A DNA stretch of 19,820 bases, from positions 1 to 19,820 of the forward strand of contig CANJXD010000040.1 of assembly GCA_947478535.1 (NCBI GenBank). Reading direction: 5' to 3'. Every line of letters starts with the position of its first letter. Positions within the stretch are counted from its first letter, which is position 1. The notes beneath the pieces are model-generated. The model saw only the letters and a list, made by a program, of their open reading frames with translations. It was not told the origin of the DNA and searched no databases. The DNA comes from Acetobacteraceae bacterium (GTDB taxonomy: Bacteria; Pseudomonadota; Alphaproteobacteria; Acetobacterales; Acetobacteraceae). This document shows positions 132 to 19,820 of the stretch, one piece after another. Both the position numbers and the translations under genes were made by a program.

Positions 132-145
132 TCGGAGACAGACTC
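1..145 (+). mobile_element. Right end of an IS5-type insertion sequence
   Basis: The transposase stop (129-131) is followed within 14 bases by GAGACAGACTC (135-145), read from the other strand as GAGTCTGTCTC. A terminus starting with GAG is common in IS5-family elements, and TAA (146-148) could be the short target duplication. The exact boundary at 145 is inferred, because the other end of the element is outside the window and the inverted repeat cannot be matched. Confidence 0.5.
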
Positions 146-1062
146 TAAAGCGACATCTGCGCGATCAGGCGGCGCAGGTCCTCCTCCACCGTCGCCTCAC
201 GGGCGAAGGCAGCGTCCCGGCGCAGCCTGGTGGTGTCGGCCACCATGGCCGCCACCTCCACCGGCCGGTCTGGCAGGGCGCCAAGGCGGAGCAGGTCCGG
301 CCGCCCGGCTAGGCCGGCGATCAGTCTGGCGAGATCGGCGATCCGCCAACCCTGCCCGCTGCCGATGTTGAAGGCGCCGGTCGCGTTGCTCACGGCCAAC
401 GCGGCCAGCGCATCGGCCGCGAACCAGGTGCTCGCGAAATCGCGGATCGGACGGCCGGAAGCGCAGGCCGCTTCCCGCCCCTCTCGCAGCGCGAGGATGA
501 TGGAGGGCACCAGTCGGTCAGGGTGCTCACCGGGCCCGAACAGATGAAACAGCCGCCCCCAGGCCACCGCGCAACCAGGGCGGGCTTCGGCCATCGCCAT
601 CAACCGCGCCGCCAGCGCCGCCTTGGCGCGGCCATAGGGCGTGGCGGGGGCGATGGGGCGCGTCTCCGGCCAGGGCGCGTCACCCCCCGGCGCGTCCATC
701 GCGTATTCCGCGCAACTGCCGAGGCCGATAAAGCGCCGCCCCCCGGCTTCCGCGAAATGCGCGGCGAGGCTGGTGGACGCATCGAGCCAGGCTTCGTTCT
801 CCGGCGCCGTCCAGAAGCGGCCATGCACGACATACCAGGCGGCGTGGACGATGATGGCGGGGCGCAGATCCCGCAGCAGGGCGGCCGCCTCATCCTCCCG
901 CAGCAGATCGGCGCGGTGCCAGCGCGCATGGGGGGCAGCCTCTGGCGGCGGCGCGGCGTCCCGCGTCAACGCATGCACCTCGAAGCCCCGCGCCGCGAGT
1001 GCGGCCGGCAGGGCGCGGCCGATGAAGCCGCTCGCCCCGGTGAGGAGCAGGCGCTCAGCCAA
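145..1062 (-). CDS. NAD(P)-dependent SDR sugar epimerase/reductase
   Basis: This 305-residue extended short-chain dehydrogenase has the Rossmann motif GASGFIG at residues 9-15, a Ser in GLGSCAEY (Ser116) and the catalytic pair Tyr143/Lys147 in YGRAK. The C-terminal half (for example FNIGSGQGWRI) is the nucleotide-sugar-binding part of the family. It is the last gene of the CDP-sugar operon and overlaps the upstream rfbC-like gene by 8 bases. Coming after a dehydratase, C-methyltransferase and 3,5-epimerase, the simplest role is reduction of the C-4 keto group to give the finished sugar; an epimerase role is possible. Its stop codon TAG (147-145) sits exactly at the putative IS5 end, so the original C-terminus may have been slightly changed. 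The family is secure; the exact reaction is inferred. Confidence 0.88.
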   Translation of the reverse strand: MAERLLLTGASGFIGRALPAALAARGFEVHALTRDAAPPPEAAPHARWHRADLLREDEAAALLRDLRPAIIVHAAWYVVHGRFWTAPENEAWLDASTSLAAHFAEAGGRRFIGLGSCAEYAMDAPGGDAPWPETRPIAPATPYGRAKAALAARLMAMAEARPGCAVAWGRLFHLFGPGEHPDRLVPSIILALREGREAACASGRPIRDFASTWFAADALAALAVSNATGAFNIGSGQGWRIADLARLIAGLAGRPDLLRLGALPDRPVEVAAMVADTTRLRRDAAFAREATVEEDLRRLIAQMSL

Positions 1063-1582
1063 GGCGCGGCCAGTCCCGGTCGCGGTCGGAGATCACGGTG
1101 GGCAGCGCCGGCCAGGGGATGCCGAAGGCCGGGTCGTCCCAGGCGAAGCCGCGCGCCAGGCCGGGGGCATAGGGCGTGTCGATCAGGTATTCCACCGCCG
1201 CGTCATCGGTCAGCGTCAGGAAGCCATGGGCGCAGCCCTTCGGGATGAAGAAGGCGTTGTTCGCGCCGGCGCTGAGCTCGACCGCGACATGGCGGAACCG
1301 CGTGGCGGAACCCTCCCGCAGATCGACCGCGACGTCGAACACGGCGCCGCGCAGGCAGCGCACCAGCTTGTTCTCCTCCGCCGGCGCGGCCTGAAGATGC
1401 AGGCCGCGCAGGGTATGACGGCGGGTGTTCTCGGACAGGCTCGCCTGGGTCGGCGCGAAGGTGATGCCGGCGGCGGCAAAGCGCTCGGCGCACCAGGTGC
1501 GGATGAAGGCCCCGCGGGCATCCCGCACCGGTTCCGCGGCGATGTGCAGCAGGCCGGCGATGGCGGTGGGCTCGAACCTCAC
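1055..1582 (-). CDS. rfbC: dTDP/CDP-4-keto-6-deoxysugar 3,5-epimerase, RmlC family
   Basis: This 175-residue cupin has the length and layout of RmlC/RfbC. It shows RGAF near residue 23, RGLH with the catalytic His62, Lys72 in NKLVR, the core DVAVDLREGS, IPKGCAHGF around 113-121, and Tyr132 and Tyr138 in the stretch before the WDDP motif (148-151). These match the residues used by RmlC for proton abstraction, proton donation and base stacking, so an active epimerase is expected. The start is GTG at 1582, overlapping the stop of the methyltransferase by 4 bases (GTGA), and the 3' end overlaps the SDR gene. Because the operon makes CDP-glucose rather than dTDP-glucose, its substrate is probably the C-methylated CDP-4-keto-6-deoxy sugar, with epimerisation at C-5 and/or C-3. 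That substrate is inferred. Confidence 0.9.
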   Translation of the reverse strand: MRFEPTAIAGLLHIAAEPVRDARGAFIRTWCAERFAAAGITFAPTQASLSENTRRHTLRGLHLQAAPAEENKLVRCLRGAVFDVAVDLREGSATRFRHVAVELSAGANNAFFIPKGCAHGFLTLTDDAAVEYLIDTPYAPGLARGFAWDDPAFGIPWPALPTVISDRDRDWPRLG

Positions 1583-2817
1583 GGCAATTCGGTCATCGCC
1601 GGCACGGCGATGGCCAGGCGGCCACGGAAGCCCTGGCCACGCAGCGCGGCCGCGATCTCCGGCGCGATGTTCCAGGGCAGCACGAGGATGTCATCCAGCG
1701 CGAGGTCCAGCAGCGCCTCCGGCGTCACCACCGGGATATGGCTGCCGGGCAGCAGGCGGCCCTGCTTGGCGGTGCTGCGATCGGCCACGGCGATGATGTC
1801 GGCCGCGGTGATGCCGGCCGCATTCAGCAGCGTATTGCCTTTCGCTGCCGCGCCATAGGCGCCGATACGATGGCCGGCCGCGCGCGCTTCCGCGATCCAG
1901 CGCCGCAGCCCTGCCGTCACCTGCCGGACGCGGGCATCGAAGCCGGCATAGAAGGCATCGCCATCGAGGCCGCGCGCCGCTTCCTCCGCCCGCAGCGCGA
2001 TCACGGCGGCGGAAGCCTCCCGCGGCGCGGCGCTGGCCATCACGCGCAGCGACCCGCCATGCGTCGGCAGGCGTTCCACATCCACCACCGCGAGGCCGTG
2101 CCGCGCCAGCAGCCGTTCCATCGAAAGCAGCGACCAATAGGCGTAGTGCTCATGGTAGATGGTATCGAACTGCACGCCATCGACGAGCGAGACGAGGTGC
2201 GGCGCCTCGATCGACACCAAGCCGCGCGGCCCCGCCATCAGCGCGAGGCCGGCGACGAAATCATTCACATCCGGCACATGCGCCAGCACGTTGTTGGCGA
2301 CGATCAGATCCGCATGGCGATGCGCCGCGACCAGCCGCGCCGCCGTCTCCCGCCCGAAGAAGGCGACCTCGGTCGGAACGCCGGCCTCCCGCGCCACGGC
2401 GGCGACATTCGCGGCCGGCTCCACGCCGAGGCAGGGGATGCCGGCGGCGACGAAGTTGCGGAGCAGGTAGCCATCATTGCTCGCGACCTCGACGACGAAG
2501 CTGCCCGCGCCGAGGCCGAGCCGCGCCACCTTGCTCTGCGTGAAATGCGCGGCATGGTCGAGCCAGGAGGAGGAGGCGGAGGAGAAATACGCATAGTCCG
2601 AGAAGATGCCGACCGCATCGACCACGGTATCGAGCTGCACAAGGCGGCATTCCGCGCAGACCACGGCGCGCAGCGGAAACACCGGCTCGGCCTCCGCCGC
2701 ACGATCCAGCGGTACATAGGAATTCGCCACCGCCATGCTGCCGAGGTCGCAGAACACGGCGCCGAGCCGCCCGCCGCAGGCGCGACAGGCGGTGACGGGA
2801 TGCGACGCGCCGTTCAT
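1579..2817 (-). CDS. Sugar C-methyltransferase (SAM-dependent, zinc-binding N-domain)
   Basis: This 412-residue protein has the three-part build of NDP-sugar C-methyltransferases such as TcaB9, TylC3 and NovU. It opens with a zinc-binding module (Cys11, Cys14, Cys54, Cys57), followed by a SAM fold with VVEVASNDGYLL at 108-119, and closes with a C-terminal domain of the Methyltransf_14 type (YGAAAKGNTLL). Active-site residues known from TcaB9 have clear counterparts: Tyr75/Tyr77, His180 in VLAHV, and Tyr221, Glu223 and His224 in IYHEHYAYWS. It should add a methyl group to the carbon next to the C-4 ketone, normally C-3, through an enolate. Its ATG overlaps the rfbG stop by 4 bases and its stop overlaps the rfbC-like start by 4 bases. 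The family is certain; substrate and position are inferred from the operon. Confidence 0.9.
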   Translation of the reverse strand: MNGASHPVTACRACGGRLGAVFCDLGSMAVANSYVPLDRAAEAEPVFPLRAVVCAECRLVQLDTVVDAVGIFSDYAYFSSASSSWLDHAAHFTQSKVARLGLGAGSFVVEVASNDGYLLRNFVAAGIPCLGVEPAANVAAVAREAGVPTEVAFFGRETAARLVAAHRHADLIVANNVLAHVPDVNDFVAGLALMAGPRGLVSIEAPHLVSLVDGVQFDTIYHEHYAYWSLLSMERLLARHGLAVVDVERLPTHGGSLRVMASAAPREASAAVIALRAEEAARGLDGDAFYAGFDARVRQVTAGLRRWIAEARAAGHRIGAYGAAAKGNTLLNAAGITAADIIAVADRSTAKQGRLLPGSHIPVVTPEALLDLALDDILVLPWNIAPEIAAALRGQGFRGRLAIAVPAMTELP

Positions 2818-3878
2818 GTACCATTCCCCAGGAAACAGTCGCGGATCGCCGCCTCGCTGGCCGGCAGCATCGGCACGCCGCGCAGCCAGCCGGCATACCA
2901 GGACGCCGTCTCCGCGATGGCGCGCGGCGTGTCGTAGCGCGGCGTCCAGCCCAGGGCGCGTTCCGCCAGCGTGCTGTCGAGGGCAAGGCGGCGGCTTTCA
3001 TCCATCACCGGGCCTTCGATCTGCCGCCATGCCACCGGCACGCCGGTCGCGGCCTCCCACTGCGCCAGCAGGTCCCGCACCGCGCATTCGCCGTCGCGCG
3101 GGCCGAGGTTCAGCGCGGCGGGCGCGGGCGCCGTGGCGAGGCGTTCGGCCAGCAGGAGGTAGCCGCGCAGCACATCCAGCACATGCTGGAAAGGGCGCGT
3201 CGCATCAGGGCGGCGCAGCAACAGCGGCTCCCCCGCCTGGATGGCGCGGACGAGGTCCGGCACCAGCCTTTCCTTCCCGAAATCACCGCCGCCGATGACA
3301 TTCCCGGCGCGTGCCGTGGCTAGCGGCGGCAATTCCCGCCCGAAGGAGGCGCGCCAGCTCGCCACCGCGATCTCCGCCGCGGCCTTGGAGGCGCTGTAGG
3401 GATCGGCGCCGCCGAGCCGGTCCGCCTCGGTGAAGGCGCGGCCGGCGCCATCATTCGCATAGACCTTGTCGGAGGTGACGATCAGCGCCGCCGCCACACC
3501 CTCCAGCCCGCGCAGGGCCTGCAACAGCGCGATGGTGCCACCGCAATTCGTGGCGAAGGTCCCGGCGGGGTCGCGGTAGCCATCGCCGACCAACGCCTGC
3601 GCCGCGAGGTGCAGCACAACCTCCGGCCGCGCGCCGCGCACCAGCGCGGCGACGCCTTCGGCATCGCGGATATCGGCGCGGTGATCGGCCGCGAGAATCG
3701 GCGCGACCTCCAGCACCGCGAAGGCCGAAGGCCCGGGTGGCGGATTGAGGGCGATGCCCGTGACCGCCGCGCCAAGGCTGTGCAGGGCCCGGCACAGCCA
3801 GGCTCCCTTGAAACCGGTATGCCCGGTGACGAGAACGCGCCGCCCTCGCCAGAAGCCGGCCTCCGGCAGCGCCGTCAC
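2814..3878 (-). CDS. rfbG: CDP-glucose 4,6-dehydratase
   Basis: The 354-residue product carries the family signature GHTGFKG at residues 19-25 in the NAD-binding fold, TSDK at 135-138 (where dTDP-glucose dehydratases usually have TDE) and YSASK with Tyr161/Lys165. It converts CDP-glucose to CDP-4-keto-6-deoxyglucose in the cytoplasm. I chose the GTG at 3878 because it overlaps the rfbF stop (GTGA at 3878-3875), is preceded by a GGAGGG ribosome-binding site inside rfbF, and puts the Rossmann motif at the usual distance from the N-terminus. The frame stays open upstream to an ATG at 4028, but that extension lies wholly inside rfbF and has no homologous look. Assignment is firm. Confidence 0.94.
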   Translation of the reverse strand: MTALPEAGFWRGRRVLVTGHTGFKGAWLCRALHSLGAAVTGIALNPPPGPSAFAVLEVAPILAADHRADIRDAEGVAALVRGARPEVVLHLAAQALVGDGYRDPAGTFATNCGGTIALLQALRGLEGVAAALIVTSDKVYANDGAGRAFTEADRLGGADPYSASKAAAEIAVASWRASFGRELPPLATARAGNVIGGGDFGKERLVPDLVRAIQAGEPLLLRRPDATRPFQHVLDVLRGYLLLAERLATAPAPAALNLGPRDGECAVRDLLAQWEAATGVPVAWRQIEGPVMDESRRLALDSTLAERALGWTPRYDTPRAIAETASWYAGWLRGVPMLPASEAAIRDCFLGNGT

Positions 3879-4645
3879 CACACCCTCCAGGGCGCCTGGC
3901 CGGAAGCCCAGAGCCGTTCCAGCAGATCTCGCTCCCGCAGCGTGTCCATGGGTTGCCAGAAACCGTGATGGTCGAAGGCGGAGAGTTCCCCATCCCGCGC
4001 CAGGCCGCGCAGCGGTTCCTGTTCCCACACCGTCGTGTCATCGGCGATGCGGTCGATCACCGCGGGGGACAGCACGAAGAAGCCACCATTGATCGCGCCG
4101 CCATCGCCCAGCGGCTTTTCGACAAAGGCGGAAACCCGCGCGCCATCGCGTTCCAGCGCGCCGAAGCGGCCCGGCGGTGAAACAGCGGTGACGGTGGCCT
4201 GGCGCCCTTCCGCACGGTGGAAGGCGATGAGGCGTGCGATGTCCACATCGCCGACGCCGTCGCCATAGGTCATGCAGAAGTCACGCTCGCCTTCCAGCAG
4301 GTGGCGCACACGACGCAGGCGTCCGCCGGTCTGCGTATCCTCCCCGGTATCGACCAGCGTGACGCGCCAGGGCAACGCGGCGGGGCGCAGCACCTCGACC
4401 GCGCCGGTCGAAAGATCGACCGCGATGTCGGAAGCGTGCAGCCGGTAGTTCAGGAAGAATTCCTTGATCTGCCAGCCCTTGTAGCCAAGGCAGATGATAA
4501 AATCCTGCACGCCATGCGCGGCGTAGATCTGCATGATGTGCCACAGGATGGGGAAGCCGCCGATCTCCACCATCGGTTTCGGCCGGAGCGTGGTTTCCTC
4601 CGCCAGCCGCGTGCCGCGCCCGCCGGCCAGGATCACGGCCTTCAT
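3875..4645 (-). CDS. rfbF: Glucose-1-phosphate cytidylyltransferase
   Basis: This 256-residue nucleotidyltransferase matches the usual RfbF length. It begins MKAVILAGGRGTRL, followed by the substrate-binding TLRPKPMVEIGG. Next come LGYKGWQIKEFFLNY, typical of cytidylyltransferases of this group, then TYGDGVGDVD with a metal-binding Asp, VEKP, and a C-terminal HGFWQPMDTLRE. It makes CDP-glucose from CTP and glucose-1-phosphate, the first step of the pathway. The ATG at 4645 overlaps the stop of the GT41 gene (ATGA) and the stop overlaps the rfbG GTG, so the genes are translationally coupled. The same frame is open far upstream inside the GT41 gene, but that part is a shadow frame. Assignment is firm. 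Confidence 0.95.
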   Translation of the reverse strand: MKAVILAGGRGTRLAEETTLRPKPMVEIGGFPILWHIMQIYAAHGVQDFIICLGYKGWQIKEFFLNYRLHASDIAVDLSTGAVEVLRPAALPWRVTLVDTGEDTQTGGRLRRVRHLLEGERDFCMTYGDGVGDVDIARLIAFHRAEGRQATVTAVSPPGRFGALERDGARVSAFVEKPLGDGGAINGGFFVLSPAVIDRIADDTTVWEQEPLRGLARDGELSAFDHHGFWQPMDTLRERDLLERLWASGQAPWRVW

Positions 4646-7023
4646 CGGGCGGAAACCTCGATGGCGCGGGCGTAGAAATTCTGCACGAAACGCGCGGGCT
4701 GGCCGAGCGGATTGACGCGGATCATGTCCCGCAGCCCATGCCGCAGGTGCCGCCGCCGCGCCTTGTCCCCGGCCAGCGCCACGGCCTTGGCGACGTAATC
4801 CTCGATGCTGTCCGCGGCGAGGTCGCCGATCCCGGCATTGGCGAGGTTCGAATAGGCGAGGCGTTCGGGAAAGCCGGGGCCGATCAGCGTGATGGTCGGC
4901 ACGCCCATCCACAGCGCCTCGCAGGTCGTCGTGCCGCCGACATGCGGCAGCGTATCCAAGGCGATGTCGATGCTGTTGTAGTGCGGCATGTGCTTGCCGC
5001 GGATGCCGACGAAATCCAGCCGCGCCGGGTCCACATCCCGCTTCGCGAAAAGCGCCTTCGCATTGGCGATGAAGGACACGCCGCCGGCTTCCGGCCGAAT
5101 GAACAGGAAGCGCGAATCGGGCACCGCGCGCAGCACGGCAGCCCAGGTATCGATGCAGCGTTCCGTCATCTTGTAGGGGTTGTTCGCGGTGCCGAAGCTC
5201 AGCACGCCGCGCCGGTCCTCCGGGATGCCCTCCTCGATCGGCTGGTCGTGGAAGCCGAGGCGGGACAGCGCCACCCAGGTCTCCGGCATCTCGAAGGGCT
5301 GTTCGATCAGCAGGCGCTTGTCGGTCGGGCGGATGTAGGGATCGACCAGGACGTAGTCGATGGATTCGAGCCCCGCCGAATGCGGATAGCCCAGCCAGCT
5401 CGCGCCGAGGCGCGCGGGGCGATAGGCCATGACCTCCAACTTGTTCATCGCCGTGCTGCCACCGAGTTCGAACAGCATGTCGAGCCCATCCGCCGCGATG
5501 CCTTCGGCCACCTGCGCATCCGGCCGCTTCGGCCACCAGCGGAAGCCCGTGACCTTGCTTTCGATATGCGCCTGCACACGGTCCTTCTCCCCTTCGTAGA
5601 AGGAATAGCAGAACACCTCGATGCGATCGGGATTGAAGGCCTCCAGCAGCGGCAGCGCGAAGTAGCTGACGGGGTGGTGCCGCAGGTCGGAGGACATGAA
5701 GCCGACGCGAAGCTTGCGCCCGGTGGCCAGTGCCGGCATCGCCGGGCGTTCCACCGGCTTGATGGACGCGGCCGCGCGGCGCCCCCAGGCGCGGTGCCAT
5801 TCGACGAGGCGGACGCGGTCCTCCATCGTCTCGACCTGGCCGAGTTCGTAGTGCACGGCGGAATGCCGGCCTTCCGCCAGCCAATGCGGCAGCAGGTCCC
5901 GCACCGCGCCGGTGGCCGCGAGGCGATCGAGGTCCAGTACGCGCTGGAACACAGTCCGCAACGTGCGGGCCAGGCGCGGCGCGCGGTCCGGATGCTCGGC
6001 CAGCAGACGGCTGCCGACGGCGTAGGCTTCCTCCAGATGCGCGGCTTCATTGTCGTAGCGGCTGCGCGCCAGGCTATCGACCAGGGCTTCGGCCGCTTCC
6101 CAGGAGTCCGGGTTGTGTTCCACCGCCCGATGCAGCGCGACATTGGCGGCACGCCGGTCGCCATCGCCGTGCAGGCGACCAAGCAGCAGGTTTGCATAGA
6201 GGTCACCAGGCGCCGTGACGATGACGCGGTCCAATGCCTCCTGCGCTTCCTGCACCCTCCCGAGGCGCAGCAGGATGCGCGCCGCCGTCACCGCCGCCAC
6301 GGGGTCACCGGGCAGCGCCTGGCGGGCGCGTTCGGTCACGATGCGGGCCTGTTCGGGCTCCCCCACGTCAAGCAGCACGGCGACGAGGATGGCGAGCACG
6401 TCCCGATTGCGGGGATCGAGCGCGAAGGCCTTCTCGAGGCTCGCCCGCGCGCCCACCACATCATTCAGCGCGCGCAGCGTGCGGCCATGCAGGCACCAGA
6501 GCTCCGCATTGCGCGGATCGAGCTTCGCCCCCGCGCCGAAGGCTTCCGCGGCGCCGGCGAAATCGCCGAGCAATTCGCGCACATTGCCGAGGTTCTGGCA
6601 GGCGGAGACGTTGCGCGGTTCCAGCTTGCGCGCGGCTTCCAGCGCCGCCAGCGCCTCCGGCAGGCGGCCGGCCCGCTTCAGCATCACACCGAGCGTATTG
6701 ACCAGCGCGAAATCCTTGGGCTTGCGGGCGGCCGCCGCCTGCAACAGGTCCACCGCCTCCCCATGCCGGCGCAGCGCGGACAGGGACAGGGCATGGGGGA
6801 CGGCCAGCGCCTGGGCGGAAGCACCGCCGGCGGTGGCGGCTTCGAAGGCCTCCACAGCCTCCGCATGGCGCGCCCCCTGCGCCAGCAGGCCGGCGAGTTG
6901 CTGCCAGGCCATGGCATTGCCCGGCTGCTGAGCGAGCCGTTCCCGCAGCGCCGCCTCCAACTGCGGGGCGGGGCCAGACGCGGCGCGGGGCGCGGGCCTG
7001 GATCGGAAACCGGGACGGTTCAT
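4642..7023 (-). CDS. TPR-repeat glycosyltransferase of the GT41 (O-GlcNAc transferase/SPINDLY-like) family
   Basis: This 793-residue cytoplasmic protein has no signal peptide. Residues ~20-350 are tetratricopeptide-like helical repeats (recurring A-L-E-A-A and L-x-P-x-N spacing, for example ARKLEPRN and AKLDPRN). Residues ~437-780 are the GT41 catalytic region: KLRVGFMSSDLRHHPVSYF, with His449/His450 near the OGT catalytic histidine, NNPYKMT with Lys618 (position of the UDP-binding Lys in OGT), the HYNSIDIALDTLPHVGGTTT segment (681-700) and ALWMGVPTITLIG. GT41 enzymes transfer sugar to protein side chains (Ser/Thr, or Asn in HMW1C types). It is the first gene of the sugar operon, which suggests it uses or modifies the product of that pathway. 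The start at 7023 directly precedes the divergent promoter region. Family sure; acceptor and donor unknown. Confidence 0.88.
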   Translation of the reverse strand: MNRPGFRSRPAPRAASGPAPQLEAALRERLAQQPGNAMAWQQLAGLLAQGARHAEAVEAFEAATAGGASAQALAVPHALSLSALRRHGEAVDLLQAAAARKPKDFALVNTLGVMLKRAGRLPEALAALEAARKLEPRNVSACQNLGNVRELLGDFAGAAEAFGAGAKLDPRNAELWCLHGRTLRALNDVVGARASLEKAFALDPRNRDVLAILVAVLLDVGEPEQARIVTERARQALPGDPVAAVTAARILLRLGRVQEAQEALDRVIVTAPGDLYANLLLGRLHGDGDRRAANVALHRAVEHNPDSWEAAEALVDSLARSRYDNEAAHLEEAYAVGSRLLAEHPDRAPRLARTLRTVFQRVLDLDRLAATGAVRDLLPHWLAEGRHSAVHYELGQVETMEDRVRLVEWHRAWGRRAAASIKPVERPAMPALATGRKLRVGFMSSDLRHHPVSYFALPLLEAFNPDRIEVFCYSFYEGEKDRVQAHIESKVTGFRWWPKRPDAQVAEGIAADGLDMLFELGGSTAMNKLEVMAYRPARLGASWLGYPHSAGLESIDYVLVDPYIRPTDKRLLIEQPFEMPETWVALSRLGFHDQPIEEGIPEDRRGVLSFGTANNPYKMTERCIDTWAAVLRAVPDSRFLFIRPEAGGVSFIANAKALFAKRDVDPARLDFVGIRGKHMPHYNSIDIALDTLPHVGGTTTCEALWMGVPTITLIGPGFPERLAYSNLANAGIGDLAADSIEDYVAKAVALAGDKARRRHLRHGLRDMIRVNPLGQPARFVQNFYARAIEVSAR

Positions 7024-7166
7024 ACGCGACCATTCATGCGGGACGGTCCATGCCGGGCGGTGTTGCGTGCCGAGGGCCACCGGGGGCCGGTTGCCTTCCT
7101 GCGCCCTGCATATCACGCTTCCGCGCGCCCCCCCAAGCGACCACCCTTTCCCGCCGGACCCAGTGC
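7024..7166. promoter_or_regulatory. Divergent intergenic region for the sugar operon and the glycosyltransferase
   Basis: These 143 bases separate two divergent starts and must hold the promoter of the six-gene minus-strand operon and probably that of the plus-strand glycosyltransferase. I could not pick convincing -35/-10 pairs by eye in this GC-rich stretch; the only AT-richer patch is around 7108-7115. Confidence 0.4.
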
Positions 7167-8777
7167 ATGACCGATGCCGAGATCCCGCCCACCGAACCGC
7201 CGGACGCCGCCCTGCTGGCGGTAATGCCGCTTGGCATCGGCACGGTGCTGGTCGCGGGATCGGCCGCACCCGCCATCGCCCGCGCCTTCGCGGCGCGGGA
7301 CCCGGCGGCGCGCGTGCAGGTGCTGGCCCCTGGTGAGGAGCCGTCGATGGGGGCGGGCAGCTTCGGCTGCATCGTCCTCGCGGGAGTGCTGGCCGGACAT
7401 GCGGACCCGGCCGCGCTGCTGGCCACGATGGCGAAGCTTCTGGCGCCGGGGGGCGTGCTGGTCGCCGATGCCGCCAATGCCGAATACTGGCGCACCACCG
7501 CGGCCCTGCTGCGCGGCGGTTGGCGGCAGGATGCCGGGGCGCGCAACAGCTTTTCCCTGGGCGGCATGCGCGCCGCGCTGGAAGCCGGCGGCCTGGTGCC
7601 GGTCGAGGCCCTGCCGCGGGAGCCAGAGGCGGACGCCGCGCAGGCATTCGTCATGCAGATGACGCCGGCGCTGGAGGCGATGGGCATCGATCCCAAGGGC
7701 TACCTCCGCCGCGCCGCGCCGCGCCGCCTGCAATGGCGCGCCACGCGCGGCAGACCAAAGCGGTTGCTGGTGGTGGCGCAGACCCTGAAGCCGGTGGGCG
7801 GGGTGAATGACGTCCGCATCCATATGCCGCTGGCGGCGCTGGCGACGCGCCCCGGCGTTACCGTCATCGCCGACCAGAACCCCGCCATCCCCGCGCCCCG
7901 CCCCGATGAAGCACGGATTCTGATCCTGCAGCGCCGCCTGCTCGATTCACCGGCGGCACCCGCCTATGTCCAGTCGCTGCGCGCGCGCGGCTTCCTGGTG
8001 GTGCAGGAATTCGACGACGACCCCGCGCATTGGCCCTCCATCGCCGCCTCCGATGATTTCGCCTTCCGCGGCGTGCATGCCGTGCAGACCTCCACCACGC
8101 CGCTGGAGGCGTTGTTCCAGGGCTGGAACCCGGACGTCGCGGTCTTCGCGAACACCGTGGACCACATCCCCCCCGCCACCAATTTCCGCGACCCTCGCCG
8201 CCTGCGCCTGTTCCTCGGCGCGCTGCGGCGGGAGGATGACACCGCGCCCTTCATCGAGGCGCTGAACCGCGTACTCGCCGCAGCGGGAGACCGGCTGTTC
8301 GTCGAGGTGATCTTCGACCGCGCCGGCTTCGAGGCGCTGCGCACCCCGCATAAGCGCTTCCATCCCCTGATGCCCTACGCCGAGTACCGGGCGCTGATGG
8401 CGGGCTGCGAGATCGCCTTCCTGCCGCTGGCGGATAACCGCTTCAACCGCTTCAAGTCGGACCTGAAATTCGTCGAGGCCGCGTCGCACCGGCTGTGCTG
8501 CGTGGCGAGCCCGGTGGTCTATGGCGGCACCATCCGGCATGGTGAAACGGGGCTGATCGCAGCGAGCCCGGCCGCCGTCGAAGCCTCCCTGCGGAACCTG
8601 CTGGCAGCGCCGGACAAGGCGCTGGCGATGGCGGAGGCCGCGCGGCGCTGGGTGATGGCGGAGCGCATGATGGCGGGGCAGGTCGAGGCCCGCCTCGCCT
8701 GGTATCATGGCCTGTGGGAGCGCCGGGCCGCGCTGGACGCGGCATTGCTGCAACGCTGCCCGGCCATCGCGGGGTAG
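7167..8777 (+). CDS. Glycosyltransferase (GT4-like) with N-terminal methyltransferase-like domain
   Basis: This 536-residue protein appears to have two parts. Residues ~24-150 look like a degraded class I methyltransferase fold: TVLVAGSAAPAIARAF sits where the glycine-rich SAM loop should be, and LLAPGGVLVADAAN resembles the post-motif III segment. The rest, from RPKRLLVVAQ at ~197, looks like a family 4/1 glycosyltransferase: a GGVNDVRIHMP loop near 211, FKSDLKFVEAASH with Glu437 where GT4 enzymes have their donor-binding Glu, then GGTIRHGETGLIA. No signal peptide or membrane segment is visible, so it is probably cytosolic or peripheral. It is divergent from the sugar operon across 143 bases. 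I chose ATG 7167; the longer open frame reaches back to 7050 without family features. Substrate unknown. Confidence 0.75.
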   Translation: MTDAEIPPTEPPDAALLAVMPLGIGTVLVAGSAAPAIARAFAARDPAARVQVLAPGEEPSMGAGSFGCIVLAGVLAGHADPAALLATMAKLLAPGGVLVADAANAEYWRTTAALLRGGWRQDAGARNSFSLGGMRAALEAGGLVPVEALPREPEADAAQAFVMQMTPALEAMGIDPKGYLRRAAPRRLQWRATRGRPKRLLVVAQTLKPVGGVNDVRIHMPLAALATRPGVTVIADQNPAIPAPRPDEARILILQRRLLDSPAAPAYVQSLRARGFLVVQEFDDDPAHWPSIAASDDFAFRGVHAVQTSTTPLEALFQGWNPDVAVFANTVDHIPPATNFRDPRRLRLFLGALRREDDTAPFIEALNRVLAAAGDRLFVEVIFDRAGFEALRTPHKRFHPLMPYAEYRALMAGCEIAFLPLADNRFNRFKSDLKFVEAASHRLCCVASPVVYGGTIRHGETGLIAASPAAVEASLRNLLAAPDKALAMAEAARRWVMAERMMAGQVEARLAWYHGLWERRAALDAALLQRCPAIAG

Positions 8778-15346: not shown

Positions 15347-15468
15347 GGCAGGGATTTCCCGGGCCAGAGGCGGCGTCCATCGCGTCCGGTTGGTGGAAAA
15401 TCAGCAAAAGCCCGATCCACCGCCACGCCCGCTTGCGCCCCCCCGGCCCCCGCGCCCATATCCCGGCC

Positions 15469-16308
15469 ATGGACAACCCCGCCATGAACCTCGATTTCAC
15501 CGAGGCGGAGCTTCGTCGCTATTCCCGGCACATCCTGCTGGAGGAAGTGGGCGCGATCGGCCAGGCGCGGCTGCGCGCGGCCCGCGTGCTGGTGGTGGGC
15601 GCCGGCGGGCTCGGCTCGCCGCTGGCGCTCTACCTCGCTGCCGCCGGGGTGGGGACGCTCGGCATCATCGACCATGACCGGCTGGAGCTGTCGAACCTGC
15701 AGCGCCAGGTGGCCCATGTCACGGCGCGGATCGGCCGCAACAAGGCGGAGAGCGCGGCGGAGACGATCGGGGCGCTGAACCCCGAGGTGACGGTCGAGAT
15801 CCACGCCCGCCGCCTGGATGCTGCCTGGGCGTGGGAGAATATCCCGCGCTACGACCTCGTCTGCGACGGTACCGACAATTTCGCCACCCGCTTCCTGCTC
15901 GGCGATGCCTGCCACCTGCTGGGCCGGCCCCTGGTCTCGGCCGCCGTGCTGCGGTTCGAGGGGCAGCTTTCCGTCTTCAAGGGCCATCTCGGCGCGCCGC
16001 ACCCCTGCCATCGCTGCCTGCATCCGGAACCGCCACCGGAAGGGCTGGTACCGACCTGTTCCGAAGCCGGCGTGCTCGGTGCCGTCACCGGCGTGATGGG
16101 CACCCTGCAGGCGACGGAGGCGCTGAAGGTCATCCTTGGCATCGGCGAGGATCTGTCCGGCCGCCTGCTGCTGTGGGATGCGCTGGATGCCCGGTTCCGC
16201 ACGGTGAAGCTGAAGCGGGACCCCGCCTGCGCGCTGTGCGGGGACGCCGCCGGCATCCATGACCTTTCGGCGCATGGCGAGGCCGCAGCCCCGGCCTGCG
16301 CGCTGTGA
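15469..16308 (+). CDS. moeB: MoeB/ThiF/HesA-family adenylyltransferase
   Basis: The 279-residue E1-like enzyme has RYSRHILLEEVG at the N-terminus, the nucleotide loop GAGGLGS at 45-51, IDHDRLELSNLQRQ with the Arg finger at 78, and DGTDNFATR at 133-141. It also has the two zinc-binding pairs Cys180/Cys183 and Cys254/Cys257. PTCSEAGVLG (Cys197) lies at the usual place of the loop cysteine. Such enzymes adenylate the C-terminal Gly-Gly of a small sulfur carrier (MoaD, ThiS or similar) for molybdopterin, thiamine or other sulfur transfer. There is no rhodanese domain. No carrier gene is in the window. I took ATG 15469; ATG 15484 is an equally plausible start and neither has a clear ribosome-binding site. 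Its stop overlaps the next gene. Confidence 0.85.
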   Translation: MDNPAMNLDFTEAELRRYSRHILLEEVGAIGQARLRAARVLVVGAGGLGSPLALYLAAAGVGTLGIIDHDRLELSNLQRQVAHVTARIGRNKAESAAETIGALNPEVTVEIHARRLDAAWAWENIPRYDLVCDGTDNFATRFLLGDACHLLGRPLVSAAVLRFEGQLSVFKGHLGAPHPCHRCLHPEPPPEGLVPTCSEAGVLGAVTGVMGTLQATEALKVILGIGEDLSGRLLLWDALDARFRTVKLKRDPACALCGDAAGIHDLSAHGEAAAPACAL

Positions 16309-16706
16309 CGACCTCCCCGCCCCTCGGCGCCGCCGCCTCGCCCCTCGGCGTTCTGCTGCGCCATGGCGACCACGAAGCCGCCCACTATGCCCTGGTGGTG
16401 GCGACCGGCGCGGCGGCGGTGGGGCGGGATGTCGTGATCTTCGCGACCAATGGCGGCTGCCGGCTGTTCCTGGACGCGCGCCCCCTGGAATCGGACCCGC
16501 GGGAGGCACGGCTGATGGCGCGCGGCGTCGCCAGCATCGCCACGCTGCTGGAGGCCGCCGGTGACCTCGGCATCCGCCGCATCGCCTGCGAAGCCGGCTT
16601 GAAGGCGGAGGATATTCCGCCGGGAAGCCTCACCGACGGCGTGGAGGTGGCGGGGATCGTCACCTTCCTGGCCGCGATCGGGGCGGGACAGATCATTGCC
16701 CTGTGA
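16305..16706 (+). CDS. DsrE-family sulfur-relay-like protein
   Basis: The 133-residue protein has the DsrE/DsrF fold pattern: HYALVVATGAAAVGRDVVIFATNG at the first strand-helix-strand, a middle part with VASIATLLEAAGDLG, then IRRIACEAGLKAEDI with Cys95, and GVEVAGIVTFLAAIG at the end. Cys95 is in the position of the conserved cysteine in this DsrE subgroup; Cys52 is a second cysteine. It starts with GTG at 16305, overlapping the moeB-like stop as GTGA, so the two are translationally coupled. The pairing hints at handling of protein-bound sulfur, though many DsrE proteins have no known role. Cytoplasmic, no signal peptide. Confidence 0.82.
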   Translation: MTTSPPLGAAASPLGVLLRHGDHEAAHYALVVATGAAAVGRDVVIFATNGGCRLFLDARPLESDPREARLMARGVASIATLLEAAGDLGIRRIACEAGLKAEDIPPGSLTDGVEVAGIVTFLAAIGAGQIIAL

Positions 16707-16749
16707 TGGGCGCTTGACCGGTCACGGTCGGATGGGAGAGGGATCAGGC

Positions 16750-17634
16750 ATGCGTCCCGTCCGCCCCGCGGTCCTGTCCCTGTTGCTGCTGGCGCTCGGC
16801 GTCGGGCCGGCCTTGCCGCAATCCGCCATCGCGCCGGCCCCGGGCAGCCTGCCGCCGCCGCGCGCGGCGGCCCCAACAACCACTCCGGCGGCCCCTTCGG
16901 CGGCCAGCCCAGCGGCGCCCACCGCGCCCCGTCCGGCGGCCCAGCCGCCCCGGCCAACCCCGCCGCAGGCACGCCCGCCGGGGCAGGCCAGTGGGCAGCA
17001 ATCGAGGCCGGCGGGCCAGCAGGCGCAGCGCCCGGGCCAGCCGCCCACGGTCGGTCGCACCCCCACCCCGGCCAATCGCCGCCCGGCCGTCGCCGCCGGT
17101 GCGGCAGGGGCTGCCGCCGGGGCCGCCGGGGCAGCTGCCGCGGCGAACCGCGCGCCGGAACCCGCCACCCCCGCGGTGCCCTTGCCGACCGTCGGCAGCG
17201 TCACCGGCCTCGCCTTGCCGCGCTATGCCGCGCTGCGGTCGGACGAAGTCAATATGCGGGTCGGGCCTTCGACCTCCTACCCCATCGAATGGACCTTCCA
17301 GCGTCGCGACCTGCCCGTGCAGATCGTCGGCGAGTTCCAGCTCTGGCGCCGCATCCGCGATGCCGATGGGGCGGAAGGCTGGGTGCATTCCTCCACCCTC
17401 GCGGGGCGCCGCATGGCGCTGATCCGCCCAGGCGGGGCGGCGGAGGAAGTCGTGCTGCGCCGGCAGGCCGCGGACAATGGCGTCTCCGTCGCCCGGCTGC
17501 GCCCCGGCGTCATCGCCCGCATCCGCGAATGCGAAGGCGCCAGCACCTGGTGCGAGTTGCAGGTCGGCGGCCATCGTGGCTTTCTGCGCCGCGCGGAATT
17601 CTGGGGTGTCGGCCCGGAGGAGGAGATCAAGTAG
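16750..17634 (+). CDS. Exported SH3-domain protein with Pro/Ala-rich linker
   Basis: The 294-residue protein has a signal peptide (VLSLLLLALGVGPALPQS, cut near residue 25). Residues ~25-155 are a low-complexity linker rich in Pro, Ala, Gln and Arg, ending in an Ala/Gly run (~113-133). Residues ~158-294 form two bacterial SH3-like repeats: VNMRVGPSTSYPIEWTF, LWRRIRDADGAEGWVHSSTL, then VVLRRQAADNGVSVARL and WCELQVGGHRGFLRRAEFWG. Such domains usually bind peptidoglycan in the periplasm. The ATG at 16750 has a good ribosome-binding site (GGAGAGGGA just upstream). Its stop is only 2 bases before the nitrile hydratase beta N-domain gene, so both are probably cotranscribed, an unusual pairing of an exported and a cytoplasmic function. 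Confidence 0.85.
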   Translation: MRPVRPAVLSLLLLALGVGPALPQSAIAPAPGSLPPPRAAAPTTTPAAPSAASPAAPTAPRPAAQPPRPTPPQARPPGQASGQQSRPAGQQAQRPGQPPTVGRTPTPANRRPAVAAGAAGAAAGAAGAAAAANRAPEPATPAVPLPTVGSVTGLALPRYAALRSDEVNMRVGPSTSYPIEWTFQRRDLPVQIVGEFQLWRRIRDADGAEGWVHSSTLAGRRMALIRPGGAAEEVVLRRQAADNGVSVARLRPGVIARIRECEGASTWCELQVGGHRGFLRRAEFWGVGPEEEIK

Positions 17635-17636
17635 CC

Positions 17637-17933
17637 ATGCCGGATGAAACCCCTCCCCCCGCCACGCATGACATGGGTGGCATCGCCCGCTTCCGCTGCA
17701 CGCCGGTGGAGCCGGATGATGATGCGCCGCCGGATGCATTCGGCAAGCGCGTCGATGCGCTGCGCCAGATCCTCGGCCGCAGCGGGCTCATGACTGTGGA
17801 TGAGATGCGTCGCTGCATCGAGGCGATCCCGGAGCCCGAATACCATGCGCTGGGCTACTACGAACGCTGGCTGCGCGGGATCTCCGCGCTGATGGTGGAA
17901 AAATCCGTGGTGCGGGCGGAGGAATTGCGCTGA
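17637..17933 (+). CDS. Nitrile hydratase-type beta subunit, N-terminal domain as a separate protein
   Basis: The 98-residue protein matches the N-terminal domain of nitrile hydratase beta: HDMGG at 11-15, a helical middle, TVDEMRRCIEAIPEPEY at 53-69, then YYERWLRGISALMVEK and a final AEEL. Arg58 aligns with beta Arg52 of the cobalt nitrile hydratase from Pseudonocardia thermophila, which contacts the oxidised cysteine claw. The protein stops where the linker to the C-terminal domain would begin. It has the YYERWL signature of the beta subunit rather than the shorter activator proteins, although activators are distant relatives and cannot be wholly excluded. ATG 17637 lies 2 bases after the SH3 gene; the stop TGA shares its A with the ATG of the next gene. 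Confidence 0.87.
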   Translation: MPDETPPPATHDMGGIARFRCTPVEPDDDAPPDAFGKRVDALRQILGRSGLMTVDEMRRCIEAIPEPEYHALGYYERWLRGISALMVEKSVVRAEELR

Positions 17934-18220
17934 TGGAAGCCTTCACCCCCGGCCAGCGCGTGCGCGTGAAGCTGGATTTCCCCGAACTCCGCGGCGCCTG
18001 CCACATCCGCACGCCGCATTACCTGCGCGGGCGGGAAGGCGTGGTCGAACGCCCGCTCGGCGCCTTCCCCAACCCGGAGGATTTGGCCTTCGCCCGGCCG
18101 GCGGCGAAGGTGCCGCTGTATCATGTGCGTTTCGACCAACCCTCGCTGTGGAACGAGGGGGCGGCCGGCGACACGGTGCTGGTGGAGCTCTACGCGCATT
18201 GGCTGGAAGGCGCCGGCTGA
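17933..18220 (+). CDS. Nitrile hydratase-type beta subunit, C-terminal domain as a separate protein
   Basis: The 95-residue protein is the SH3-like C-terminal barrel of nitrile hydratase beta: FTPGQRVRVK at the start, CHIRTPHYLRGREGVVER at 23-40, LGAFPNPED, then PLYHVRFDQPSLWNEG and a closing VLVELYAHWLE. Arg26 aligns with beta Arg157 of the Pseudonocardia enzyme, the second arginine that holds the metal claw. The ATG overlaps the previous stop by one base (TGATG), and the stop is one base before the alpha gene, so the three proteins are made in step. Split N and C domains are known in thiocyanate hydrolase and toyocamycin nitrile hydratase. These two pieces are shorter than the thiocyanate hydrolase subunits as I remember them. 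Confidence 0.88.
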   Translation: MEAFTPGQRVRVKLDFPELRGACHIRTPHYLRGREGVVERPLGAFPNPEDLAFARPAAKVPLYHVRFDQPSLWNEGAAGDTVLVELYAHWLEGAG

Positions 18221-18221
18221 G

Positions 18222-18812
18222 ATGGCCCATGCCCCCAGCGCCGACAGCATCGCCCTGCTCGACCGCTTCATCGCCGCGCTGATCGCCCATGGCGTGACGA
18301 CGGAAGACGCGATCGCCAGCCAGATCGCCAGCACCGACAAGGCCAGCCCCGAGATCGGCGCCCGCATGGTCGCCCGCGCCTGGACCGACCCCACCTATCG
18401 CACGCTGCTGCTGCGGGATGGCGGGGCGGCGGCGGAGGCGATGGGGGTTTCCATGGCCGGTGCGCCACCGCTCGGCGTGCTGGAGGATACCCCCGCGCTG
18501 CATCACCTCGTCGTCTGCACGCTGTGTTCCTGCTACCCCCGCGCCGTGCTCGGCTACCCCCCGCATTGGTACAAATCGCCGGGCTATCGCGCCCGGGCGG
18601 TGCGGGACCCCCGCGGTGTGCTGGCGGAATGGGGCACCCAACTGCCGGACGGGATGGAAGTGCGCGTGGTGGACAGCACCGCCGATTACCGCTGGATGGT
18701 GCTGCCGATGCGCCCCGCCGGGACCGAGGGCTGGGACGCCACGCGCCTGGCCGCGCTGGTGACGCGGGACGCGCTGGTGGGCGTGCGGCTGCCGCTGTCG
18801 TTGGGGGCGTAG
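18222..18812 (+). CDS. Nitrile hydratase alpha subunit (cobalt type) / thiocyanate hydrolase gamma-like
   Basis: The 196-residue metal subunit has the claw motif VCTLCSCYP with Cys99, Cys102, Ser103 and Cys104. Thr100 marks the cobalt type (iron enzymes usually have Ser). After it come GYPPHWYKSPGYRARAVRDP (111-130), EVRVVDSTADYRWMVLP and RPAGTEGWDATRLAALVTRD, all typical of nitrile hydratase alpha. The metal lies between alpha and beta subunits and hydrates nitriles to amides; close relatives hydrolyse thiocyanate to carbonyl sulfide and ammonia. Residue 107 is Arg where many nitrile hydratases have Trp after CYP. No cobalt transporter, activator or amidase gene is present in the window, so maturation help must come from elsewhere. 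Substrate class cannot be fixed from sequence alone. Confidence 0.92.
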   Translation: MAHAPSADSIALLDRFIAALIAHGVTTEDAIASQIASTDKASPEIGARMVARAWTDPTYRTLLLRDGGAAAEAMGVSMAGAPPLGVLEDTPALHHLVVCTLCSCYPRAVLGYPPHWYKSPGYRARAVRDPRGVLAEWGTQLPDGMEVRVVDSTADYRWMVLPMRPAGTEGWDATRLAALVTRDALVGVRLPLSLGA

Positions 18813-18944
18813 CGGCCGGGCCGGCGCTGCGAAGCCCGCCCAGCAATGAGTCGCCACCCGGCAACGTCTTGTTCATCCGGAAATGGCATCAATTGTCCCG
18901 AAGGCGCCGGTCAATGGGATCGCGCGCGACAGGGATCATCGTCC

Positions 18945-19553
18945 ATGAGCATGACGATCAGCATCGAGGAAGCGGTTCGGGCCGCGCTGAAAGCCGAATT
19001 CGCGCCGGTGATGATGGAACTGCGCAGCTTCGTGGACCGCCGCTTCGCGGAGCTTTCCGCCGAACTGCACGCCAGCGTCGAGATATCCGACATGGGTGAG
19101 GCGCGGATGTCGGAGGAACTGGCCCGGATCCACGACCAAATCGGCCAGCTTGTCGCCGTGCCGGCCGCGGCGACGCGCAATAGCGGCCTGGAACTGGAAG
19201 CCGTGGTGCAGGCGACGGAAAGCGCCGCCAACACGATCCTGGAAGCCGCAGAGGCGATCCAGGACTGGGCGACCTGCAATTCCCACGACCCCGGCGCCAA
19301 GGACGCGATCGTCGAGCGTGTCGGCTCGATCTTCGAGGCCTGTTCCTTCCAGGACGTCACCGGCCAGCGCATCCGCCGTGCCATCCAGCACCTGCAACAG
19401 GTGGAAGGCATGCTGGAGACGATGATGCCGGAAGGCGTCAAGCCGGAATCCCCGCGCGAAGCCGTGCTCATCGCCACCGCCGCCCGCACCGTGGAAACCC
19501 CGAGCGGCGGCGATCTTGCGCAGAATGATATCGACGCGCTGCTGAATGGCTGA
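18945..19553 (+). CDS. cheZ: CheZ-type chemotaxis phosphatase
   Basis: The 202-residue, mainly helical protein carries the CheZ active-site helix EACSFQDVTGQRIRRAIQHL at 131-150, where Asp137 and Gln141 correspond to the Asp143/Gln147 pair of E. coli CheZ that dephosphorylates CheY-P. The long amphipathic helices before it fit the dimeric four-helix bundle. The last 12 residues (LAQNDIDALLNG) resemble the CheY-binding peptide at the N-terminus of FliM. ATG 18945 was chosen because it follows an AGGG about ten bases upstream; ATG 18951 is also possible, and the frame is open back to 18846. No other chemotaxis gene is in the window. A strong hairpin follows the stop. The start of the gene has its own 132-base upstream spacer with no promoter that I can name. 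Confidence 0.87.
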   Translation: MSMTISIEEAVRAALKAEFAPVMMELRSFVDRRFAELSAELHASVEISDMGEARMSEELARIHDQIGQLVAVPAAATRNSGLELEAVVQATESAANTILEAAEAIQDWATCNSHDPGAKDAIVERVGSIFEACSFQDVTGQRIRRAIQHLQQVEGMLETMMPEGVKPESPREAVLIATAARTVETPSGGDLAQNDIDALLNG

Positions 19554-19680: not shown

Positions 19681-19820
19681 TCAACATCCGTAGCGAACAC
19701 CACCGCGGCTCTGTGTTTCGCCCCGGCTGGCCAGCTTTGCAAGTAGGCTGTTGAAGGCCTCGTTTGGGGTGGCGTAGTCGAGCGTCTTCCTGGGCCGGTC
19801 GTTGAGGCTTGCGGCGATAA
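19681..19820 (-). CDS. IS30-family transposase, C-terminal end (partial)
   Basis: Read on the minus strand, an open frame enters from the right edge and ends with TGA at 19683-19681. The last residues include IAASLNDRPRKTLDYATPNE and then AFNSLLAKL. The LNxRPRKTLxxxTPxE block is the hallmark of the C-terminus of IS30-type transposases, just after the final catalytic Glu region. The rest of the element lies beyond the window. The inner boundary of the IS, somewhere between the cheZ hairpin and this stop, cannot be placed because the inverted repeat partner is not visible. Confidence 0.82.
   Translation of the reverse strand, partial: IAASLNDRPRKTLDYATPNEAFNSLLAKLASRGETQSRGGVRYGC

Follow-up and report, generated by a model that had tools for sequence, protein, structure and literature searches.

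A probable three-subunit cobalt-type nitrile hydratase with a naturally split beta subunit in Acetobacteraceae

The window, by which we mean the whole stretch of 19,820 nucleotides of Acetobacteraceae DNA that was analysed, carries three adjacent genes of a nitrile hydratase (NHase): two free-standing proteins corresponding to the N-terminal and C-terminal halves of the beta subunit, here called N and C, and an alpha subunit (Table 1). An earlier note on this DNA had called a three-gene NHase at this place, and the call was borne out, as PF21006, PF02211 and PF02979 were all found with scores over their cut-offs. The finer points of the note, i.e. beta pieces of 98 and 95 residues, a single base shared by the N stop and the C start, a gap of one base between C and alpha, and a missing linker, agree with the open reading frames and with the alignment to the Rhodococcus NHase beta chain (1ahj_B). 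In this alignment N matches residues 4-95 and C residues 122-211, and thus approximately 26 linker residues have no counterpart in the window. Purine-rich stretches precede the start codons of N (AGGAGG), C (GGAGGA) and, in a weaker form, alpha (GGAAGG).

Table 1 Operon genes, metal site and upstream neighbours in the window
Feature	Position	Strand	Remarks
ThiF/MoeB-type adenylyltransferase	15433..16308	+	PF00899 255 bits
DsrE-like protein	16305..16706	+	PF13686 38 bits
SH3_4-domain protein, Ala/Pro-rich N-terminal part, upstream neighbour	16696..17634	+	PF06347 92 bits
Beta N-half (AnhD-like)	17637..17933	+	98 aa, 11.07 kDa; PF21006 NHase_beta_N 57 bits, cut-off 21.5
Beta C-half (AnhE-like, SH3-like barrel)	17933..18220	+	95 aa, 10.64 kDa; PF02211 NHase_beta_C 64.9 bits, cut-off 27.7
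Alpha subunit (AnhA-like)	18222..18812	+	196 aa, 20.87 kDa; PF02979 244.9 bits, cut-off 27.2
CTLCSC cobalt claw codons (alpha residues 99-104)	18516..18533	+	Sequence; invariant across 81/81 alpha rows

The best PDB matches of N by sequence were NHase beta chains. The predicted fold of N (mean pLDDT 83.2) gave 28 best Foldseek hits that were all chains of NHase beta or of thiocyanate hydrolase (ThcH), with probabilities of 0.90-1.00, yet the best E value was 0.0067. For C (mean pLDDT 87.9) the 29 best hits came without exception from the same two kinds of chain, at E 7.9e-6 to 4.1e-4. The top PDB match of alpha was the Co-type NHase 4ob1_A (E 3.9e-56), with the ThcH gamma chain 2dd4_C behind it (E 1.9e-48). 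Alpha passes the Pfam model PF02979 and lies below the cut-off of the NCBIfam equivalog model for NHase alpha, TIGR01323 (230.7 compared to 249.85 bits). The two beta halves obtained 51.1 (N) and 60.3 (C) bits with the full-length beta model TIGR03888, under its cut-off of 152.2, because a half cannot attain a full-length score. Residues 121-166 of alpha also score above the threshold of TIGR03793, a model of NHLP leader peptides (55.9 compared to 50.9 bits). NHLP RiPP leaders have reportedly been proposed to derive from NHase alpha, and if so such a match is expected.

The identity of the 98-residue protein was of particular importance, since the note regarded it as a beta half and named an activator as the finding that would speak against this. 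N obtained 51.1 bits as beta and 15.3 bits with the activator model TIGR03889, the cut-off of which is 46. N has Arg58 and an HDxGG start, whereas none of seven annotated activators has arginine at this position or the complete HDxGG. With the claw arginine and the HDxGG start kept, unlike in the seven activators, N is a beta half; the activator score under the cut-off and the kept Arg58 rule out the other identity, and the view of the note holds. In the accessible part of a study of the activator P14K, this protein is described as shorter than beta and as being without the corresponding arginine, and the missing arginine is linked to weaker cobalt holding and to transfer from the alpha-activator complex (PMC4709657). 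TIGR03889 was absent from 21 of 22 operon-carrying genomes and was found only in G019, which served as a positive control because its second NHase locus is followed by such an activator. PF21006 had one match per genome in 15 of the 22 and a second match, in a gene fusing beta-N to alpha (N=A), in six; G019 had three matches. A Pfam scan of 21 window proteins revealed no activator, amidase, nitrilase or cobalt transporter families, confirming for these proteins what the note had said of the surroundings.

Conservation was assessed with the best 80 of 369 relatives, taken from genome contigs, of which two end inside the operon (L074 inside C and L050 inside N). The order N-C-alpha was the same in all 79 loci in which the three genes are visible, and in 79/79 loci with both beta pieces visible N and C are separate open reading frames. 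In 67 of the 79 the N stop and the C start overlap by 4 bases, which suggests translational coupling. The dN/dS values of N, C and alpha were 0 to 0.31 in 15 chosen pairs, i.e. the genes are under purifying selection. Eleven of 12 relatives' genomes had no full beta gene elsewhere, the operon's own gene being the sole PF02211 match. The split of beta described in the note is thus natural; the sequencing frameshift that the note had named as its refutation did not come true, and a frameshift origin is ruled out by the separate frames in 79/79 loci. We therefore give practically no credence to a broken canonical NHase, in which beta would have been frameshifted or N would be an activator with a full beta gene elsewhere: the two beta frames do overlap in different registers and activators are remotely related to the N domain of beta, but the split is shared by the relatives, 67 of the 79 with the 4-base overlap, N scores higher as beta and keeps the arginine that 0/7 activators have, and single PF02211 matches are the rule in 11/12 genomes.

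The VCTLCSC claw of alpha (Cys99, Cys102, Ser103 and Cys104) was kept in 81/81 alpha rows, and the claw arginines, Arg58 of N and Arg26 of C, in 80/80 rows each, so the statement of the note that the claw and both arginines are kept is true of every alignment row. The rows are relatives of one another and these counts do not represent independent events. Alpha Arg107 was likewise found in 81/81 rows (the window and the best 80 of 369 relatives). The residue at this place beside the claw is Trp in 12/12 canonical alphas and Arg in 18/18 Acetobacteraceae rows. The glutamine of the canonical QGE stretch, present in 9/12 canonical rows, is absent from the Acetobacteraceae rows, which have Gly (18/18), and is absent also in ThcH. 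With Arg107 in place of Trp and without the QGE glutamine, the pocket probably differs from that of canonical NHases, since both positions presumably line the substrate pocket. Three residues specific to the family are nearly invariant, namely N Cys21 (79/80), alpha Pro82 (81/81) and alpha Tyr112 (80/81); Cys21 and Tyr112 may reflect a special substrate or a particular step in the loading of the metal.

The SH3_4-domain gene stops 2 bases before N, and it and the operon therefore probably form one transcription unit. A homologue of this gene was present somewhere in 62 of 80 loci (best 80 of 369), and within 700 bases upstream of N in 33 of the 51 with enough DNA. Where 3 kb of upstream DNA was available (44 loci), the ThiF/MoeB-type gene and the DsrE-like gene occurred together in 18, and probably they are neighbours outside the enzyme. 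Downstream, no general conserved partner was found across the 80 loci (best of 369), most other clusters looking like spurious open reading frames. In 23 of the 80 loci an MFS-type protein (judged by eye, median 444 aa) starts a median of 91 bases past alpha. The open reading frame after alpha in the window (18846-19553) resembles CheZ weakly (29.3 bits, below the cut-off of 30.7) and has no homologue in the 80 loci (best of 369 relatives) at E 1e-8. The last stretch of the window (19681-19820, minus strand) resembles the 3' part of a transposase gene, IS30-like by eye. At the other end, positions 145-8777 hold a sugar-modification block, with Pfam matches to epimerases, a dTDP-sugar isomerase, a C-methyltransferase, a dehydratase and a nucleotidyltransferase; also present are a weakly matched group-1 glycosyltransferase and a TPR protein whose glycosyltransferase domain belongs to family 41.

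The note had regarded such short subunits without an activator as odd. This oddness did not stand, as an enzyme with the same gene order, similar sizes and no activator has been published: ScNHase of Streptomyces canus CGMCC 13662, encoded by anhD-anhE-anhA with products of 10.41, 11.35 and 21.33 kDa and, in the accessible text of the report, no activator (PMC7329996). According to the same text, AnhD acts also as a metal and subunit-swapping chaperone, the complex is AnhD2E2A2, the enzyme hydrates acetamiprid, thiacloprid and benzonitrile, and it is called similar to eukaryotic NHase (PMC7329996). The three-gene layout was thus already known, and the likeliest mechanism for the window enzyme is taken from the ScNHase work. 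The two systems share the order beta-N, beta-C, alpha and sizes of approximately 10, 11 and 21 kDa as far as the ScNHase text goes; they differ in their host, Streptomyces in the one case and Acetobacteraceae in the other. The presumed kinship is drawn from the layout, the sizes, the lack of an activator and a three-gene relative from another Streptomyces (L116, not S. canus). The alpha subunit of this relative is 51 % identical to that of the window and it lies on the same side of the main split in the tree described below; an aquaporin and a HoxN-type transporter adjoin it, whereas the window is without both.

We consider it probable (about 0.8) that the three genes encode a three-subunit Co-type NHase of the ScNHase (AnhD-AnhE-AnhA) kind, likely hydrating a nitrile to an amide. 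By analogy with ScNHase, from which the cobalt, the stoichiometry, the chaperone role and the nitrile hydration are all carried over, alpha would hold a Co(III) ion in its CTLCSC claw, and the beta halves would bind alpha separately, one arginine from each reaching the oxidised claw cysteines. As each half would give one arginine, the working complex would be (N C alpha)n, the probable composition being N2C2alpha2, which is the one reported for ScNHase. On its own, N would probably double as a cobalt-loading and subunit-swapping chaperone, as AnhD reportedly does, replacing the canonical activator, and the reaction would most likely be hydration of nitrile to amide. The claw arginine of N is in some tension with a chaperone role, since activators are without it.

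Canonical Co-type NHases (Rhodococcus, Klebsiella) share with the window the CTLCSC claw and both arginines, and their alphas are 47-48 % identical to that of the window; they differ in having mostly one beta chain with a linker (9/12 rows), an activator gene, and Trp beside the claw in every row. Twelve rows carried this label. An activator was found for eight of them (seven annotated, one by TIGR03889), L169 and L171 had a weak N-like hit only, and L168 and L170 had no activator in the fetched stretch. In 3 of the 12 N and C are also in separate open reading frames, so a split beta is not unique to the three-gene side.

The relationships were studied with a concatenated N + C + alpha tree of 73 chosen rows (IQ-TREE, LG+C20), in which the N part of L122 was masked because its best hit was a downstream activator, and two alpha hits of P0255 were treated as one span. 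A branch with support 97/96 parts 51 rows from 22. The larger side holds 36 loci with N, C and alpha as separate genes in this order, three with the order C, alpha, N, and all but one of the 13 full N=C=A fusions, including those of Myrmecia and Hyaloraphidium; the smaller side holds the 12 rows of canonical type, six N=A fusions, two ThcH, one full fusion and one Streptomyces three-ORF locus. The window groups with Falsiroseomonas and Roseomonas. An NHase on a Streptomyces plasmid (L123:3258-4567), the annotation of which is empty, has its N and C in frames that overlap and falls with the canonical NHases. The concatenated tree thus places the window apart from both ThcH and canonical NHases at 97/96, but formal rejection of the joined topologies was not obtained: in AU tests p was 0.065 with the operon family joined to canonical NHases and 0.055 with it joined to ThcH. 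An alpha-only tree made with a quick method had 92 rows, after 12 of 104 were dropped (11 loci of the family that resembled others, plus a single alpha that had neither N nor C). In it the canonical group came together at 98, much else was unresolved, and three-gene loci appeared on both sides of the main branches.

The Roseomonas group has kept these three genes for a long time. In the family of Falsiroseomonas algicola (G001), 122 of 200 sampled genomes had a match to alpha, 103 of them at a minimum of 62 % identity, and 78 had none. Among 20 further loci from the family, 18 had the three genes in the order N, C, alpha, one had alpha alone and one an N=A fusion. Class-wide, 142 of 385 genomes matched alpha; 20 loci from this list comprised 16 with the three-gene order (E 4.9e-68 to 1.5e-58) and four with a canonical alpha and a one-chain beta (E 2.5e-56 to 3.2e-52). 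Plasmid records with checked domains showed the order N-C-A in Streptomyces sp. NBC_01176, Agrobacterium rubi and Planktothrix, and C-A-N in Rhizobium, Microvirga and Polymorphobacter; those of Gloeocapsopsis and Aminobacter had the order A-N-C followed by an annotated accessory protein. The three-gene relative of Agrobacterium rubi adjoins amidase and transporter genes. A literature search by title and the beginning of the abstract, which covered few subscription papers, found none that dealt with a three-subunit NHase from Roseomonas or from Acetobacteraceae.

For the window enzyme a special substrate, thiocyanate or other, is unproven. That it is a compact thiocyanate hydrolase, converting SCN- to COS and NH3 with Arg107 holding the anion in the pocket, appears improbable to us. 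The enzyme does resemble ThcH (ScnABC, PDB 2dd4) in its CTLCSC claw and in having the beta halves as separate chains, of which 2dd4_B matches N and 2dd4_A matches C; the DsrE-like and MoeB/ThiF genes upstream of the operon could be read in the same direction, and arginine follows the claw in both ThcH (scnC) rows as it does in the window. This arginine is nevertheless no thiocyanate signature, because it is found also in 19/22 other three-gene alphas and in 6/6 N=A fusions. The window alpha obtained 186.7 bits with the thiocyanate hydrolase gamma model TIGR03887, the cut-off of which is 291.45, and the ThcH rows form a separate long branch across the 97/96 split, though with the AU value given above. 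Near two annotated scnC loci there are CbtA/CbtB or HupE/UreJ genes as well as a TauE/SafE exporter; none of these families was found among the 21 window proteins scanned. The scnC loci of Roseomonas marmotae (L121:3047-4696) and Azospirillum ramasamyi (L122:3054-4696) each follow a single SH3-like gene of 283 codons. Besides its beta-C domain this gene matches beta-N weakly (16.5 and 13.5 bits, respectively), and it is perhaps a fused ScnB-ScnA.

A better case, though still a doubtful one, can be made for an NHase that acts on a biosynthetic or signalling nitrile intermediate, i.e. in endogenous metabolism rather than in scavenging. The toyocamycin NHase is said to be dedicated to such a biosynthetic intermediate. 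Approximately half of the sampled genomes of the family retain the operon, often beside the same SH3 gene, and the purifying selection, the nearly invariant residues specific to the family (N Cys21, alpha Pro82 and Tyr112) and the lack of a catabolic family among the 21 window proteins scanned are in line with an endogenous role. However, no biosynthetic gene cluster was recognised around the operon, the amidase and transporter genes give the Agrobacterium rubi locus a catabolic look, and detoxification can also keep genes for a long time. Deazapurine-pathway families, which would give the context of ToyJKL, were not found among the 21 window proteins scanned. The three-subunit NHase of the ScNHase kind remains our preferred reading.

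Fused NHases were met alongside the operon. One-chain fusions of beta-N, linker and alpha occur at L109:5638-6693 (minus strand; with a His- and Asp-rich linker), in L110-L114 and in L140, the last from another genome. In six of the 22 operon-carrying genomes an N=A fusion is the second NHase. The six 12-kb N=A fusion loci contained no beta-C domain, and the only one in the six genomes is that of the three-gene operon; the fusion NHase may do without beta-C, or it may use the one that the operon supplies. The 120 best proteins obtained with the joined query (P0241-P0360) had the architectures N-A (53), A (36), N-C-A (19), C-A (7) and others (5), and the full fusions among them include Myrmecia bisecta, Hyaloraphidium curvatum and a EukProt entry.

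The beta-alpha fusion NHases of eukaryotes (Monosiga type) have the domain order beta-N, beta-C, alpha in the accessible text of the 2012 survey, which is the gene order of the operon, and the survey placed all bacterial sequences on the prokaryotic side of its tree (PMC3323583). They differ from the window in being one chain, some with a His-rich linker before alpha. No activator gene had been found for eukaryotic NHases to date according to the available part of a review (PMC7193024). It is conceivable, and we put it forward only tentatively, that the alphaproteobacterial operon is the bacterial counterpart of the one-chain NHases of eukaryotes and perhaps gave rise to them, with the enzyme long kept in Acetobacteraceae for an endogenous nitrile. 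Both the operon and the eukaryotic enzymes would then be without an activator because their beta-N part does the cobalt loading, and, operon order and domain order being the same, fusion of the operon would yield the eukaryotic protein. In our tree 12 of 13 full fusions, only some of which bear a eukaryote label, lie on the operon side at 97/96, but placing the 12 beside canonical NHases cost 0.31 log-likelihood units (AU p 0.49); the kinship is thus unsettled and an origin by operon fusion is not claimed.

What the present analysis adds to the known layout is how widely it is distributed, that the Roseomonas family retains it, and which genes lie around it. The layout of ScNHase, a system described from a single Streptomyces, is found repeatedly in Alphaproteobacteria, and about half of the sampled Roseomonas-family genomes keep it. 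With this recurrence and retention, two questions become testable, namely which substrate, nitrile or other, is handled by an NHase that lacks catabolic neighbours, and whether beta-N as a free subunit generally replaces the activator, and the order shared with the eukaryotic fusions provides a concrete hypothesis for the origin of eukaryotic NHases.
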